64,000 nucleotides of DNA from Rhizobium sp. N324 (GTDB lineage: Bacteria > Pseudomonadota > Alphaproteobacteria > Rhizobiales > Rhizobiaceae). The stretch is from the NCBI RefSeq assembly GCF_001664485.1, contig NZ_CP013630.1:1305001-1369000 (forward strand). The letters are read 5' to 3'. This document shows positions 16,421 through 21,762 of this stretch, piece after piece (position 1 is the stretch's first letter; each line of letters begins with the position of its first letter). The notes under the pieces are model-generated. The model was not told where the DNA came from. It ran no database searches and saw only the letters and a list, made by a program, of their open reading frames with translations. Position numbers and translations under genes: made by a program.

Positions 16421-17941
<1,521 letters not shown>

Positions 17942-17950
17942 GATCGTTCT

Positions 17951-18137
17951 CTGGTCTTGACCGGGGAGGCGATCCGGGGCGTTCAGCCATCACGGAATTG
18001 CGCCTATCAGGCCCGGGAAATTACAGGAATGCGGGCGCGAACCATGGGTTACGGCGCCGCATTGGCCACGAAGGGCAGACCAGGAAGAGATGTCGAGAAA
18101 CGGTCTCTGGTCAGCCCTGCAAATGCATTTGCAGGGC
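17951..18137 (-). promoter_or_regulatory. Candidate translation attenuator of the ABC-F gene
   Basis: Three mutually exclusive pairings can be drawn on the minus-strand RNA. Hairpin 1 is the 24-bp perfect palindrome at 18114-18137, covering the end of the leader ORF. Hairpin 2 pairs AGGGCUGACCAG (18107-18118) with CUGGUCUGCCCU (18072-18083), 11 of 12 matching, and shares five bases with hairpin 1. The same CUGGUCU can instead pair with AGACCAG at 17951-17957, only 10 nt before the ABC-F ATG. Ribosome position on the leader ORF would decide which forms. This is read from sequence; the mechanism is inferred. Confidence 0.55.
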
Positions 18138-18182
18138 GTCGACGGGACCACGCTGGCGATTAAACCGGAAATAATACTGCAT
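18111..18182 (-). CDS. Leader peptide upstream of the ABC-F gene
   Basis: A 23-residue ORF, MQYYFRFNRQRGPVDALQMH then LQG and a TGA stop. AAAGGAGGAT lies 7-8 nt before the ATG and is the best ribosome-binding site in this region, which argues that the ORF is translated. It lies 169 nt upstream of the ABC-F start on the same strand. The N-terminal part is rich in aromatic and Arg residues, as in ribosome-arrest peptides. Its last codons lie inside a perfect palindrome. I know no named homologue; role as a stalling leader is inference. Confidence 0.55.
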   Translation of the reverse strand: MQYYFRFNRQRGPVDALQMHLQG

Positions 18183-18273
18183 GGCGTGATCCTCCTTTCT
18201 CGAAAGGGTTGTGAGATTGAAATACCATTGCCTGGAGTAGGAGGCAAGGGAGGCGCCGTTGCTCGGCGCCCAA

Positions 18274-18562
18274 GAGCCTCATCCTGAGGTGCCCCGCCGG
18301 GGCCTCGAAGGACGAGGCGGGTGCACTGGTGGTTGGACGCAAGGAGCAGCGCTGGAGCGTGTCCTTCGAGGCTCCGACCTTTGGCCTACGCGCCTCAAAT
18401 GAGGGAGGTTGGGAGGGTGCCGCGCCCTCTCTCCGACCTCATGCTGAGGTGCCCCGAAGGGGCCTCGAAGGACGAGGTCGGCCACCGGCGTCGGGGCGCA
18501 AGACGCGGCGCTGGAGCGCGTCTCTCGAGGCTCCGCCCTATGAACTGTGTGCCTCAGAATGA
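18274..18562. repeat. Two tandem copies of a ~135-bp palindromic intergenic repeat
   Basis: Unit A (18274-18407) and unit B (18432-18562) each begin CTCATnCTGAGGTGCCCCG, continue with GGGGCCTCGAAGGACGAGG, and end in GCCTCA...ATGA, so the ends are inverted. Unit A is nearly identical to the copy at 19798-19935, while unit B is more diverged. This sequence type is widespread between genes in Rhizobiales, by memory. It fills the gap upstream of the ABC-F leader. Confidence 0.8.
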
Positions 18563-18569
18563 ATGCAGC

Positions 18570-18742
18570 CTAACCCGCCGTATCACCGCCAGCCAGCTCC
18601 AACCGCCGCTCTGTTCCGATGCTCTCTAGAAACGCCTCGTCATGACTGACGACGATGAGCGCGCCGTCATAAGCACGCAGACCCGCCTCGACCGCAGCGA
18701 TCGAGTCGATGTCGAGATGGTTGGTCGGCTCGCCGAGGACCT
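18570..18742 (-). pseudogene. Remnant of the 3' end of an ABC-F gene
   Basis: About 153 bp (18590-18742) align with the 3' end of the intact ABC-F gene at 20037-20189, at roughly 90% identity by eye. The encoded tail includes EPTNHLDIDSIAAVEAGLRA and VVSHDE, then a terminal ELAGGDTAG-like end with a TAG stop. The Walker B aspartate is Gly (VLGEPTN), and an in-frame stop lies just upstream, so it cannot be functional. It is separated from the intact gene by an unrelated membrane-protein gene. Confidence 0.8.
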
Positions 18743-18794
18743 TGAGCGTCGCAATGGCTCACCATATCTGCACGAGCATTGCGCCATTCAGCAG

Positions 18795-19397
18795 TCATTG
18801 GCGGCAAAGGTTACTTATTGCTCCAACCTTTTGCTGCAGGTCCGCAAGGGCTTTGCCGGCCAGTTCAGTGCCCAATTGTTTGTACGTCGTGGTGTCGGCC
18901 ATCTTCTCGGTGAAACAGGTGCAATAAGTTTGGATTTGCTGCTGAGTAATAGCTTGGTTGAGTGAGGCCTGCTTCTGAACGCACGCAAACTGGGTGTCAG
19001 CTATGAATGATTTTCGAGCTTCGCCACCGATTGCTTGGTCGCGAGAGAACACAAACTCACCGTAGGTAAAAAGGCCGACGAAAATTGTGACAACGAGCGC
19101 CGCGAACGTGATTACCCCCCGGATGGCACTTGCGTTCGACTTAGCTTGCCCCTTTTTGAAAACGTTTCGTATGGCCGCAATCACCACAAATAATAGTGGT
19201 GCGGCGAGAACCTGCCCACCTAAAGCGCTAATCGTTTCCGCACTCCGAGTGTGGGCGTAGCTTGCTAGTTCAAAGCCTCGACCGTTCGCGACCTGAAGTA
19301 ACAAGGCGACAGCGCTAACGCTAACGCCAATATTGGCGCTTCTCCAAAGGCTCCACTCTTGGGCTGTACGATGCCCGATCGCCTCTTCCATAGTCAT
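18795..19397 (-). CDS. Unrecognised membrane protein, probably acquired
   Basis: A 200-residue protein starting MTMEEAIGHRTAQEWSLW after a strong GGAGGAGAAGGG. Two clear membrane helices lie near residues 63-80 (VLAAPLLFVVIAAI) and 95-115 (VITFAALVVTIFVGLF), with a weaker one near 24-40. The C-terminal soluble part carries FACVQKQASLNQAITQQQIQ and then YCTCFTEKMAD, a Cys pattern seen in many small envelope proteins. Base composition is visibly lower in GC than the neighbours. It lies between duplicated flanks, which suggests insertion. Function unknown. Confidence 0.75.
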   Translation of the reverse strand: MTMEEAIGHRTAQEWSLWRSANIGVSVSAVALLLQVANGRGFELASYAHTRSAETISALGGQVLAAPLLFVVIAAIRNVFKKGQAKSNASAIRGVITFAALVVTIFVGLFTYGEFVFSRDQAIGGEARKSFIADTQFACVQKQASLNQAITQQQIQTYCTCFTEKMADTTTYKQLGTELAGKALADLQQKVGAISNLCRQ

Positions 19398-19494: not shown

Positions 19495-19914
19495 ATGGCG
19501 AAACGGGCTAGTGGAGCAATCGAGATTGAGCGACGACTTGATGGCAGGCCGAAAGGCAACATATCCCGGGGCAGCCGTCAGAGCATCATCGCTGATCTGC
19601 GAAAGCTGGCCGATCTGGCGGAAGCAAGTGATGACGGGGTTTCCGCCGTCCGGGCGCTGAAGCTTGCGTGGAACATCGCGACCATGTCCCTGCCACCGAG
19701 GCGGCCTTCCATCGATACCGTCATTGACGTTGGGGAGGTTGCCGCCGCGCTCGCGGCCCGCTTCAGCCCGGAAGATGCCGCCAGCAGCACGCGGCCTCCA
19801 AGAGAGCCTCATCCTGAGGTGCCCCGCAGGGGCCTCGAAGGACGAGGCGGGTGCACTGGTGGTTGGACGCAAGGAGCAGCGCTGGAGCGTGTCCTTCGAG
19901 GCTCCGGCCTTTAG
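19495..19914 (+). CDS. Possible hypothetical protein running into a repeat
   Basis: An open frame of 139 codons divergent from the membrane protein gene. The first ~95 residues look protein-like (SIIADLRKLADLAEASDDGV, VRALKLAWNIA), but the last ~40 residues are encoded by the dispersed palindromic repeat at 19798-19935. The true gene may therefore have been truncated by the repeat. No clear ribosome-binding site precedes the ATG, and the start overlaps the putative promoter of its neighbour. Confidence 0.35.
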   Translation: MAKRASGAIEIERRLDGRPKGNISRGSRQSIIADLRKLADLAEASDDGVSAVRALKLAWNIATMSLPPRRPSIDTVIDVGEVAAALAARFSPEDAASSTRPPREPHPEVPRRGLEGRGGCTGGWTQGAALERVLRGSGL

Positions 19915-19935
19915 CCTGCGCGCCTCAGGATGAGG
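19798..19935. repeat. Palindromic intergenic repeat, copy 3
   Basis: This copy begins CCTCATCCTGAGGTGCCCCG and ends CGCCTCAGGATGAGG, so its ends are inverted repeats. It is almost identical to unit A at 18274-18407 and lies in the same orientation. Both copies precede an ABC-F 3' end (remnant at 18570, intact at 20021). Confidence 0.88.
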
Positions 19936-20020
19936 GACGTTGGTGGATGCCGCGCTCCCGAAAGGCGGGAGGGAATGGAGAGGTGTCACTGGCGGGAGGC
20001 AGCGCTGCTCCGCCCTAAAA

Positions 20021-21613
20021 TCACCCGCCCACACCGCCAGCCAATTCCAGCCGCCGCTCTATCCCGATACTATCGAGAAACGTCTCGTCATGGCTGACGA
20101 CGATGAGCGCGCCGTCATAAGCACGCAGACCCGCCTCGACCGCAGCGATCGAGTCGATATCGAGATGGTTGGTCGGCTCGTCGAGTATCAGCAGCGGCGG
20201 CGGTGCGGAGCCGAGAACGCAGGCAAGGCCGGCGCGCAGCAATTGGCCGCCGCTCAGCGTCGAGACGGCCTGCAGCGCCGCATCCGCCCTGAACATGAAG
20301 CGGGCAAGGGCGGCCCGGCAGGTGTTTTCGTCGGCCTGCCGGTTGATCCGCCGGAAATTGTCGCGGATCGAGGTTGAGGGATCGAGAAGGCTAACCTTCT
20401 GATCGAGCATGGCAAAGCCAGTCAGGACGGCGACAGTGCCGGCCCAGGGCGCGAGTTCGCCGGCGATAAGCGCAAGCAGCGTCGTTTTGCCCGAGCCGTT
20501 GCTGCCAGTGACGGCAATCCGTTCGGGCCCCGTCACGGCGAAAGAGAGATCGCCGATGACCGGATCGCCCGGCCGGTAGCCCACGGTGACGCCCTCCAAT
20601 TTCAGCACGGTCTTATTGGCGGCGAGCCCGGTCGGCGGCAGGCGCACCGATAAGGGCTGGAGGATCTCGATCCTCTCGCGCGCCGCCTTTGCGTCTTCCT
20701 GTGCCGCCGCGCGCCGGCGTTCGACAAGGCGGGCGTTGTCGCCGCCGGTCGTTTCGCTCCGCTCCTTCATGCCGCCGAGCATGATGCGCGGGATGCCGCC
20801 CTTGGCGGCCGTCTTGCGTCCGGCGCTATCCCTGTGCGCCTGACGCTCCACCGTCGCCTGCGCCTTGCCGGCAACCTCGGCAATCCGCTTTTCGGCATCG
20901 GCGAGGTCATGCCGTGCGGCGGCAAGCTCCAGCGCCTTGCGCTCGCGATAATGGCTCCAGTTGCCGCCGTAGCGGGTGGCACCGAGCGACGTCAATTCGA
21001 CGATTGCATCCATGCTTTCGAGCAGTTCCCGGTCATGGCTGACGATGATTGCCCCGGCCCGCCAGCCCGATATCAGCGCGATCACCGCCCCGCGGCCCTC
21101 GCGATCGAGATTGTTTGTGGGCTCGTCGAGCAGCAGAAAATCCGGTTCGGCGAAGACCAGGGCGGCCAGCCCGGCACGGGTGCGCTGCCCGCCGGAGAGC
21201 GCGGCAAGCCGTGTCTGCGGCTGTGCGTCGAGCCCGGTGCGATCAAGGGCCGCCGCCATGCGCGCCTCCAGCGTCCAATCCGCCGATGAAAGTTCTTCGG
21301 CCGCTGCCGTGCCGGTTTCGGCCCGGTGAAGAAGGCCAAGCGCATCCGTCGCGCCGAAGAGATCGGCCACCGTTTCGTCAGGTGCGACCTGAACGCTCTG
21401 CCGGAGAATGCCGAGGCTGCCACTGACCGAGAGCGTCCCCGATCGCGGCCGGATGTCGCCGGAGACAAGCTTCAGCAGCGTCGTCTTGCCGACGCCGTTG
21501 CGCCCGACGAGACCGCTGCGGTCCGTCCCGAAACTCAGGTCGAGATCGGAAAAAAGCGGCCGTCCGTCAGGCGTGGCCCATGAAATTTTGGAGAGAGTGA
21601 TGGATGCAGGCAT
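20021..21613 (-). CDS. ABC-F family ATPase (second of two)
   Basis: A 530-residue protein with two ABC domains and no membrane segment. Domain 1 has GRNGVGKTT, LSGGQRTRAGLA and LLLDEPTNNLD. A charged, basic linker follows (about 225-320), with ELAAARHDLADAEKRI coiled-coil-like text. Domain 2 has GSNGSGKTT, LSGGQLLRAGLA and LILDEPTNHLD. It is not a close copy of the first ABC-F gene. The start at 21613 gives MPASITLSKISW; an upstream in-frame start would add eight residues. As an ABC-F protein it probably acts on ribosomes; specificity is unknown. A degenerate duplicate of its 3' end lies 1.3 kb away. Confidence 0.9.
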   Translation of the reverse strand: MPASITLSKISWATPDGRPLFSDLDLSFGTDRSGLVGRNGVGKTTLLKLVSGDIRPRSGTLSVSGSLGILRQSVQVAPDETVADLFGATDALGLLHRAETGTAAAEELSSADWTLEARMAAALDRTGLDAQPQTRLAALSGGQRTRAGLAALVFAEPDFLLLDEPTNNLDREGRGAVIALISGWRAGAIIVSHDRELLESMDAIVELTSLGATRYGGNWSHYRERKALELAAARHDLADAEKRIAEVAGKAQATVERQAHRDSAGRKTAAKGGIPRIMLGGMKERSETTGGDNARLVERRRAAAQEDAKAARERIEILQPLSVRLPPTGLAANKTVLKLEGVTVGYRPGDPVIGDLSFAVTGPERIAVTGSNGSGKTTLLALIAGELAPWAGTVAVLTGFAMLDQKVSLLDPSTSIRDNFRRINRQADENTCRAALARFMFRADAALQAVSTLSGGQLLRAGLACVLGSAPPPLLILDEPTNHLDIDSIAAVEAGLRAYDGALIVVSHDETFLDSIGIERRLELAGGVGG

Positions 21614-21762
21614 GGATGTGGATTTCCCTGTTGGCAAGGCGAACTGGCGTTGCGATCAGGTTGAAATCCATTGCGGCACACATCCTGTTGAAATGGTCGA
21701 TAGCAGGTAATTTAGGGGAGGAAGGCTTGCGGTTCAAGGCAGGGAACGCAGTCTTCCAGAAA

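Follow-up and report, generated by a model that had tools for sequence, protein, structure and literature searches.

How is an ABC-F ATPase gene controlled that in Rhizobium sp. N324 lies behind a short open reading frame (ORF) and several RNA hairpins that compete with each other? The question arises in a window of 64,000 nt, i.e. the whole stretch of DNA analysed (GCF_001664485.1, NZ_CP013630.1, positions 1,305,001-1,369,000); all features listed here are on its minus strand. The ABC-F gene has 506 codons (16421-17941), and a leader ORF of 23 codons is located 169 nt upstream of it. We propose, with a probability of about 0.75, that the sequence features of the leader are those of a nascent-peptide-controlled translational attenuator of this ABC-F translation factor. 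From comparison of many loci, a conserved and apparently translated leader with an RNA switch directed at the ABC-F start is well supported, while we infer arrest at a Gly-Pro pair, the trigger and the level of control.

A preliminary description of this DNA had claimed the leader ORF with a consensus ribosome-binding site, two overlapping hairpins and a pairing close to the ABC-F start, all of which are present. The ORF including its stop codon (18182-18111, MQYYFRFNRQRGPVDALQMHLQG) follows a strong Shine-Dalgarno (SD) sequence, AGAAAGGAGGAT. Its codons 16 to 23, which encode ALQMHLQG, are spanned by a perfect palindrome of 24 bp (GCCCTGCAAATGCATTTGCAGGGC, 18137-18114) forming hairpin H1 with the arms A and B. 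The 3' arm of H1, the stop codon and the next bases make up B (AGGGCTGACCAG, 18118-18107), which pairs with C (CTGGTCTGCCCT, 18083-18072) in 11 of 12 positions with one T-T mismatch; B:C and the palindrome share AGGGC in the window. The alternative partner of C is D, AGACCAG, at 17957-17951 (-16 to -10 of the ABC-F start codon), which ends 9 nt before the ATG at 17941. A further helix, H0, emerged from RNAalifold with 30 leaders; neither this helix nor the Gly-Pro core and the class-wide distribution shown below were part of the preliminary description. The left arm of H0, GGATCACG (18185-18192), consisting of the 3' end of the leader SD and the spacer, pairs with CGTGGTCC (18152-18145), the codons for Arg11-Gly12-Pro13.

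In the off state, with the leader translated or empty, A:B would form and C would pair with D over the ABC-F ribosome-binding region. In the on state a ribosome held at the leader Gly-Pro would cover A, the freed B would capture C, and D would be released, allowing translation of ABC-F.

The leader peptide was compared at 132 loci, 83 from the family and 49 from the order and class. The peptides are mostly 20-24 codons long and have the core HxR[Q/T]RGPVxAL, in the window RQRGPVxAL with Gly12-Pro13. The seven positions preceding Ala are R (112 loci), Q (89) or T (32), R (90), G (130), P (131), V (90) and any residue; the pair Gly-Pro is kept in 130 of the 132 loci. A start codon with an SD-like run was listed for 82 of the 83 family loci, with the SD of L069 visible in its sequence, and for 45 of the 49 order and class loci. 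The ratio of nonsynonymous to synonymous polymorphism (pN/pS) over codons -9 to -1, counted from this Ala, was 0.48 in frame (bootstrap 0.43-0.53) and 1.39 and 1.51 in the other two frames, based on 119 non-identical sequences. The Gly and Pro codons vary at their third positions and are freely exchanged for synonymous ones. Judged by this pattern of substitution, the leader ORF is under coding selection. Beyond Ala-Leu the amino-acid sequence is less conserved, and in some lineages the stop is at codon +3, +5 or +7, which indicates that there the hairpin and not the peptide tail is kept. At L011, L083, L122 and L130 the stop codon follows right after Ala-Leu within the first arm of H1, so that termination would itself cover arm A.

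Conservation also marks the RNA. H0 and H1 together were paired in 95.9% of alignment cells from 83 loci compared with at most 56.0% when slid (H0 91.9%, H1 98.9% separately), and 49 cells carried double changes compared with 13.5 in shuffles. Both helices show compensatory changes. At 110 loci found by a pattern scan (see below) the fifth H1 pair, which the pattern left free, was TA in 91, CG in 17 and TG in 2, the eighth was AT in 46, GT in 43 and GC in 21, and the ninth and tenth were unpaired in part of the loci. B:C was paired in 95.5% of cells and at most 54.5% when slid. Folding of the 301-nt leader gave a z-score of -2.4 with 3 of 100 shuffles equally good, which is modest taken alone; it is the conservation that decisively sets the element beyond chance.

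The pairing of C with D is centred on the ABC-F start. The best downstream complement of C fell at -30 to -11 of the start in 69 of the 83 family loci and in 33 of 48 further loci from the order and class, and C:D was paired in 87.2% of cells as opposed to 42.7% or less when slid. In several lineages C has changed together with D, e.g. TCCCGGTCTGCCCG with CGGGCAGACCTGGG in L112 and GTCTCGTCG with CGATGAGAC in L150. Of 131 loci 123 were usable for a swap test, which included 49 dissimilar D sequences: own C:D pairs scored 19.9 and lineage-swapped pairs 18.5 (p = 0.0014 by permutation, which does not remove relatedness), while a control window gave 15.3 and 15.5. As a separate observation, L147-L150 have H1 arms that are mostly GCCCCGC/GCGGGGC and a C:D of the GTCTCATCG type.

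The effect of a stalled ribosome was simulated by folding 33 chosen loci with a masked footprint from -14 to +15 around the P-site codon at 23 positions. D opened most, by 0.143, when Gly(-4) occupied the P site, and was then more open in 26 of the 33 loci; B:C gained 0.40 and C:D lost 0.23. P-site codons -3 to +1 opened D by 0.095 to 0.108 and codons -7 to -5 by 0.04 to 0.06, while positions up to -8 and from +4 had almost no effect. Shuffling of the B-C region reduced the opening to -0.002 and shuffling of D to 0.025. In the leader of the window itself the unpaired fraction of D rose from 0.22 to 0.53 with the simulated stall.

The leader and the ABC-F gene occur together. A DNA search found the leader in 36 of the 37 genomes of the genus, counting the own one. 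The 24 genomes that represent other families of the order gave no match, but one of them (G041) was later matched by a covariance model. Two such models were used, R1 built from 30 and R2 from 60 leaders, on genome samples that overlap. R1 matched 57 of 297 genomes from the family (27 of 109 genera), and R2 matched 55 of 347 from the order and 10 of 289 from the class, each of these counts including the own genome; in the phylum R2 matched 19 of 299 genomes. Two of the phylum matches were weak (E about 0.004), fell outside the class and were counted as chance. All 30 loci fetched precede the same ABC-F, and so do the leaders of 56 of the 57 R1 genomes, with L069 placed by reading its sequence. 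The exception is L088 (G109), where a leader-like element precedes a sequence that to the eye resembles the beginning of a disrupted ABC-F frame; a tblastn search with the ABC-F protein of the window gave no match in this region. L088 was excluded from alignments and peptide counts; A3 included 60 of 82 prepared sequences and left out L064, which has a long insert. At 55 new loci from the order and class ABC-F was directly downstream in 48 and about 1.5 kb away in one, and six others were taken as chance. Dropped before the peptide counts were L127, L128, L152, L153 and L154, which have no ABC-F, and L125, whose ABC-F match is 778 nt away with nothing leader-like at the match. As six of nine new class-level matches are real, the element occurs outside its own order too.

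An exact pattern scan of GTDB returned 110 stretches; because the Arg codon CGC and the 24-nt H1 were fixed, this is not a census. The stretches are titled Rhizobium, Mesorhizobium, Aminobacter, Bosea, Bradyrhizobium, Devosia, Methylobacterium, Roseomonas, Loktanella, Thalassobaculum and others. ABC-F was found by tblastn within 400 nt in 107 of the 110 (115-268 nt after the start of the match, 51.7-82.2% identity). In L225 and L237 the sequence itself stops after 108 and 77 bases, counted from that start. Conversely, all 26 ABC-F orthologues (E <= 1e-120) among 151 family genomes carry the leader; 25 are R1 matches and the leader of the 26th (L288) was recognised by eye. On this evidence the element belongs to this ABC-F gene, across Alphaproteobacteria.

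Damaged copies were seen as well. In G024 (L291), the 37th same-genus genome, R2 found a leader whose H1 is cut short and gives way to other sequence (MITFVWRNRQFGPKQALQMRLQAA), and about 1.1 kb beyond it ABC-F is reduced to residues 442-503, an end piece of 62 residues. The leader seems to decay together with its gene. In Bradyrhizobium sp. SSUT77 (L186), the remaining one of the 110 pattern stretches, the leader is followed by the first 63 ABC-F residues in frame and then by unrelated sequence. At L142 (G480) the leader is intact and the ABC-F match, truncated where the retrieved sequence ends, begins about 1.5 kb downstream, as if something had been inserted; L142 was kept in the peptide counts and excluded from the C:D analysis.

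Several results weigh against the attenuator. The further pair types in H0 and H1 did not exceed the shuffles (125 of 500 reach the value), and the shuffles used for covariation leave relatedness in. The covariation scores of B:C (0.129, shuffles 0.126) and of C:D on fixed columns (0.131, shuffles 0.135) showed no excess; within the core clade both hardly vary, and B:C and the C:D core change too little for covariation to be assessed column by column. C:D at single loci exceeded mononucleotide shuffles (p < 0.05) in only 29 of 83 cases with a median p of 0.12, and in the swap test the own D surpassed a median of 60% of the other D sequences and was the best in only 3 of 49. The complementarity is weak in L025, L083, L085, L086 and L087, and in L147-L150 B:C and C:D occupy adjacent, not overlapping, parts of C. 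The peptide motif is broken in L077 (no Gly-Pro) and L124 (Gln-Pro). In the simulations only 18 of the 33 loci opened by more than 0.1, the whole initiation window gained just 0.023, and the opening at codons -3 to +1 was nearly as large, so that Gly-Pro is not singled out. Of the checks named in the preliminary description, most gave a positive outcome: conserved peptide codons and pairings were found and covariation was seen in H0 and H1, while B:C and the C:D core vary too little to show it. Its proposed logic of a translated leader, mutually exclusive hairpins and a pairing over the ABC-F start is supported by the comparison.

Translational attenuation of the ermC type works with four RNA segments that pair either 1:2 and 3:4 or 2:3. 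The Rhizobium leader follows the same segment scheme: it comprises a short upstream ORF, to all appearances translated, with its own ribosome-binding site, two mutually exclusive hairpins one of which overlaps the ORF (A:B and B:C share GGGC), and a predicted off-state pairing that covers the target start region, if weakly in some lineages. In ermC the target is a methylase and the leader sequence is unrelated. For ABC-F genes the closest parallel is vmlR of Bacillus subtilis, for which a stall on an upstream ORF, alternative RNA structures and an SD-sequestering hairpin are described (PMC9226507); the arrangement proposed here is alike, including the stall, which is our proposal. In vmlR the upstream ORF has 3 codons and an intrinsic terminator is present, whereas the leader found here, in another phylum, has mostly 20-24 codons, a conserved amino-acid core and no terminator that we could see.

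What would hold the ribosome? Autogenous feedback is by a small margin the most probable account, although we would put it somewhat short of an even chance: the peptide would arrest its own synthesis, ABC-F would relieve this arrest, and a lack of ABC-F activity would thereby turn on its own gene. One ABC-F clade is closely tied to one peptide core and Gly-Pro is nearly invariant. The stalled chain of about 12 residues would probably be too short for pulling from outside the ribosome. For msrD (PMC10314930), arrest on a leader peptide is reported to control an ABC-F gene and the ABC-F to act back on its own leader, both of which are only proposed here; that feedback requires a drug, the peptide MsrDL is MYLIFM, a macrolide is needed, and a Rho-independent terminator is used. 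Arrest peptides with Arg, Gly and Pro near the stall are described for SecM and the RAPP/RGPP group, and the stall on SecM opens a downstream ribosome-binding site (PMC10951233, PMC12992588). In the leader it is Val or another residue that comes after RGP, and the downstream gene encodes an ABC-F. The strict RAPP or SecM motif, in which Arg precedes the P-site residue by two positions and Pro occupies the A site, was not found at the 132 loci: if the P site holds Gly, position -2 is occupied by Gln (89 loci) or Thr (32), and if it holds Pro, Val follows in 90. This and the need of the msrD feedback for a drug speak against autogenous feedback.

Alternatively, a drug-bound ribosome could stall on the leader, with ABC-F as an intrinsic resistance factor that protects the ribosome, a tentative account. 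Its architecture would be that of vmlR (PMC9226507) and its leader stalling that of msrD (PMC10314930). The protein itself gives a mixed answer. It has the ABC_tran domain twice, is 94% identical to a Rhizobium leguminosarum protein, and the named entries among its 120 best relatives are ABC-F family or ABC transporter proteins or ATPases of R. leguminosarum and others. Its best NCBIfam match is the ribosomal-protection-like family NF000355 with 287 bits at a cut-off of 380, and none of the 25 best families exceeded its cut-off. The antibiotic-resistance (ARE-ABCF) models among these 25 scored far below their cut-offs (Sal 213/725, Msr 183/680, Vga 180/725, Lsa 169/750, OptrA 135/1450), which argues against a resistance factor, as does the conservation of the peptide core across a class. 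The closest solved sequence and the top fold match are 8buu, the ARE-ABCF VmlR2; behind it come both housekeeping and resistance members. The AlphaFold model, with two ABC domains and a long helical linker, had a mean predicted local distance difference test (pLDDT) score of 76.6 and a predicted template modelling (pTM) score of 0.45; because its matches mix both kinds it does not decide the function. The linker tip KLNNIGINSGSDLL is near-invariant in 18 aligned sequences.

Control of transcription, in which the hairpins would act via Rho or RNA polymerase and not on the ABC-F ribosome-binding site, is improbable. Rho could be loaded on the roughly 115 untranslated nt that separate C from D, and vmlR combines both levels (PMC9226507), but a terminator scan, confined to the leader of the window, found no intrinsic terminator inside it and a single match upstream, and the complementarity of C centred on the ABC-F start would be superfluous. 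A conserved RNA structure binding a protein or small RNA with an incidental ORF, as the near-invariance of the H1 arms at the RNA level might suggest, is most improbable in view of pN/pS by frame, the third-position variation and the free synonymous change at Gly-Pro.

A promoter-like sequence TTGCCT-17 nt-TATTTC, a consensus match only, is present at 18219-18247 and would start the transcript at about 18212, directly 5' of the leader. When distances to the leader were grouped in 10-nt classes, the best TTG..TAT-like pair of 77 among 131 loci shared one class, and the mean score was 8.1 compared with 6.9 in shuffles; a generic promoter scan of the leader of the window found no promoter. Further upstream are a second ABC-F gene (20021-21637) and a fragment of 76 residues (18594-18821) that is 67% like the C-terminal end of the second ABC-F and appears to be the remnant of a duplication. 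Intergenic elements at 18273-18425, 18437-18562 and 19803-19955, which precede the leader and the next gene, are 79-94% alike and presumably represent a rhizobial mosaic repeat. Rfam gave no match above its gathering scores in the window; two matches in the leader had E > 4 and lay far below these scores. Full-text searches of open-licence literature (titles and abstract openings) brought up no paper on this leader among the matches listed, and it is not mentioned in 12 passages of a ribosome-profiling paper on S. meliloti (PMC10117765).

The leader-controlled ABC-F genes that we found described, vmlR and msrD, are drug-resistance genes studied in Gram-positive bacteria. That one ABC-F clade keeps the leader and RNA switch inside and outside its own order speaks for a basic role. 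A ready assay is offered by the conserved core, as it names the codon pair to toeprint and the protein to add back, and could reveal how ABC-F acts on the ribosome. We tentatively suggest a class-wide self-sensing circuit, in which the leader would encode a hard-to-translate RGPV core that is resolved by ABC-F and for which no antibiotic is needed. If this holds, ABC-F capacity would be gauged by whether ribosomes clear Gly-Pro, the peptide would represent an arrest type distinct from SecM and RAPP, and a substrate would be defined for a little-studied alphaproteobacterial ABC-F clade.
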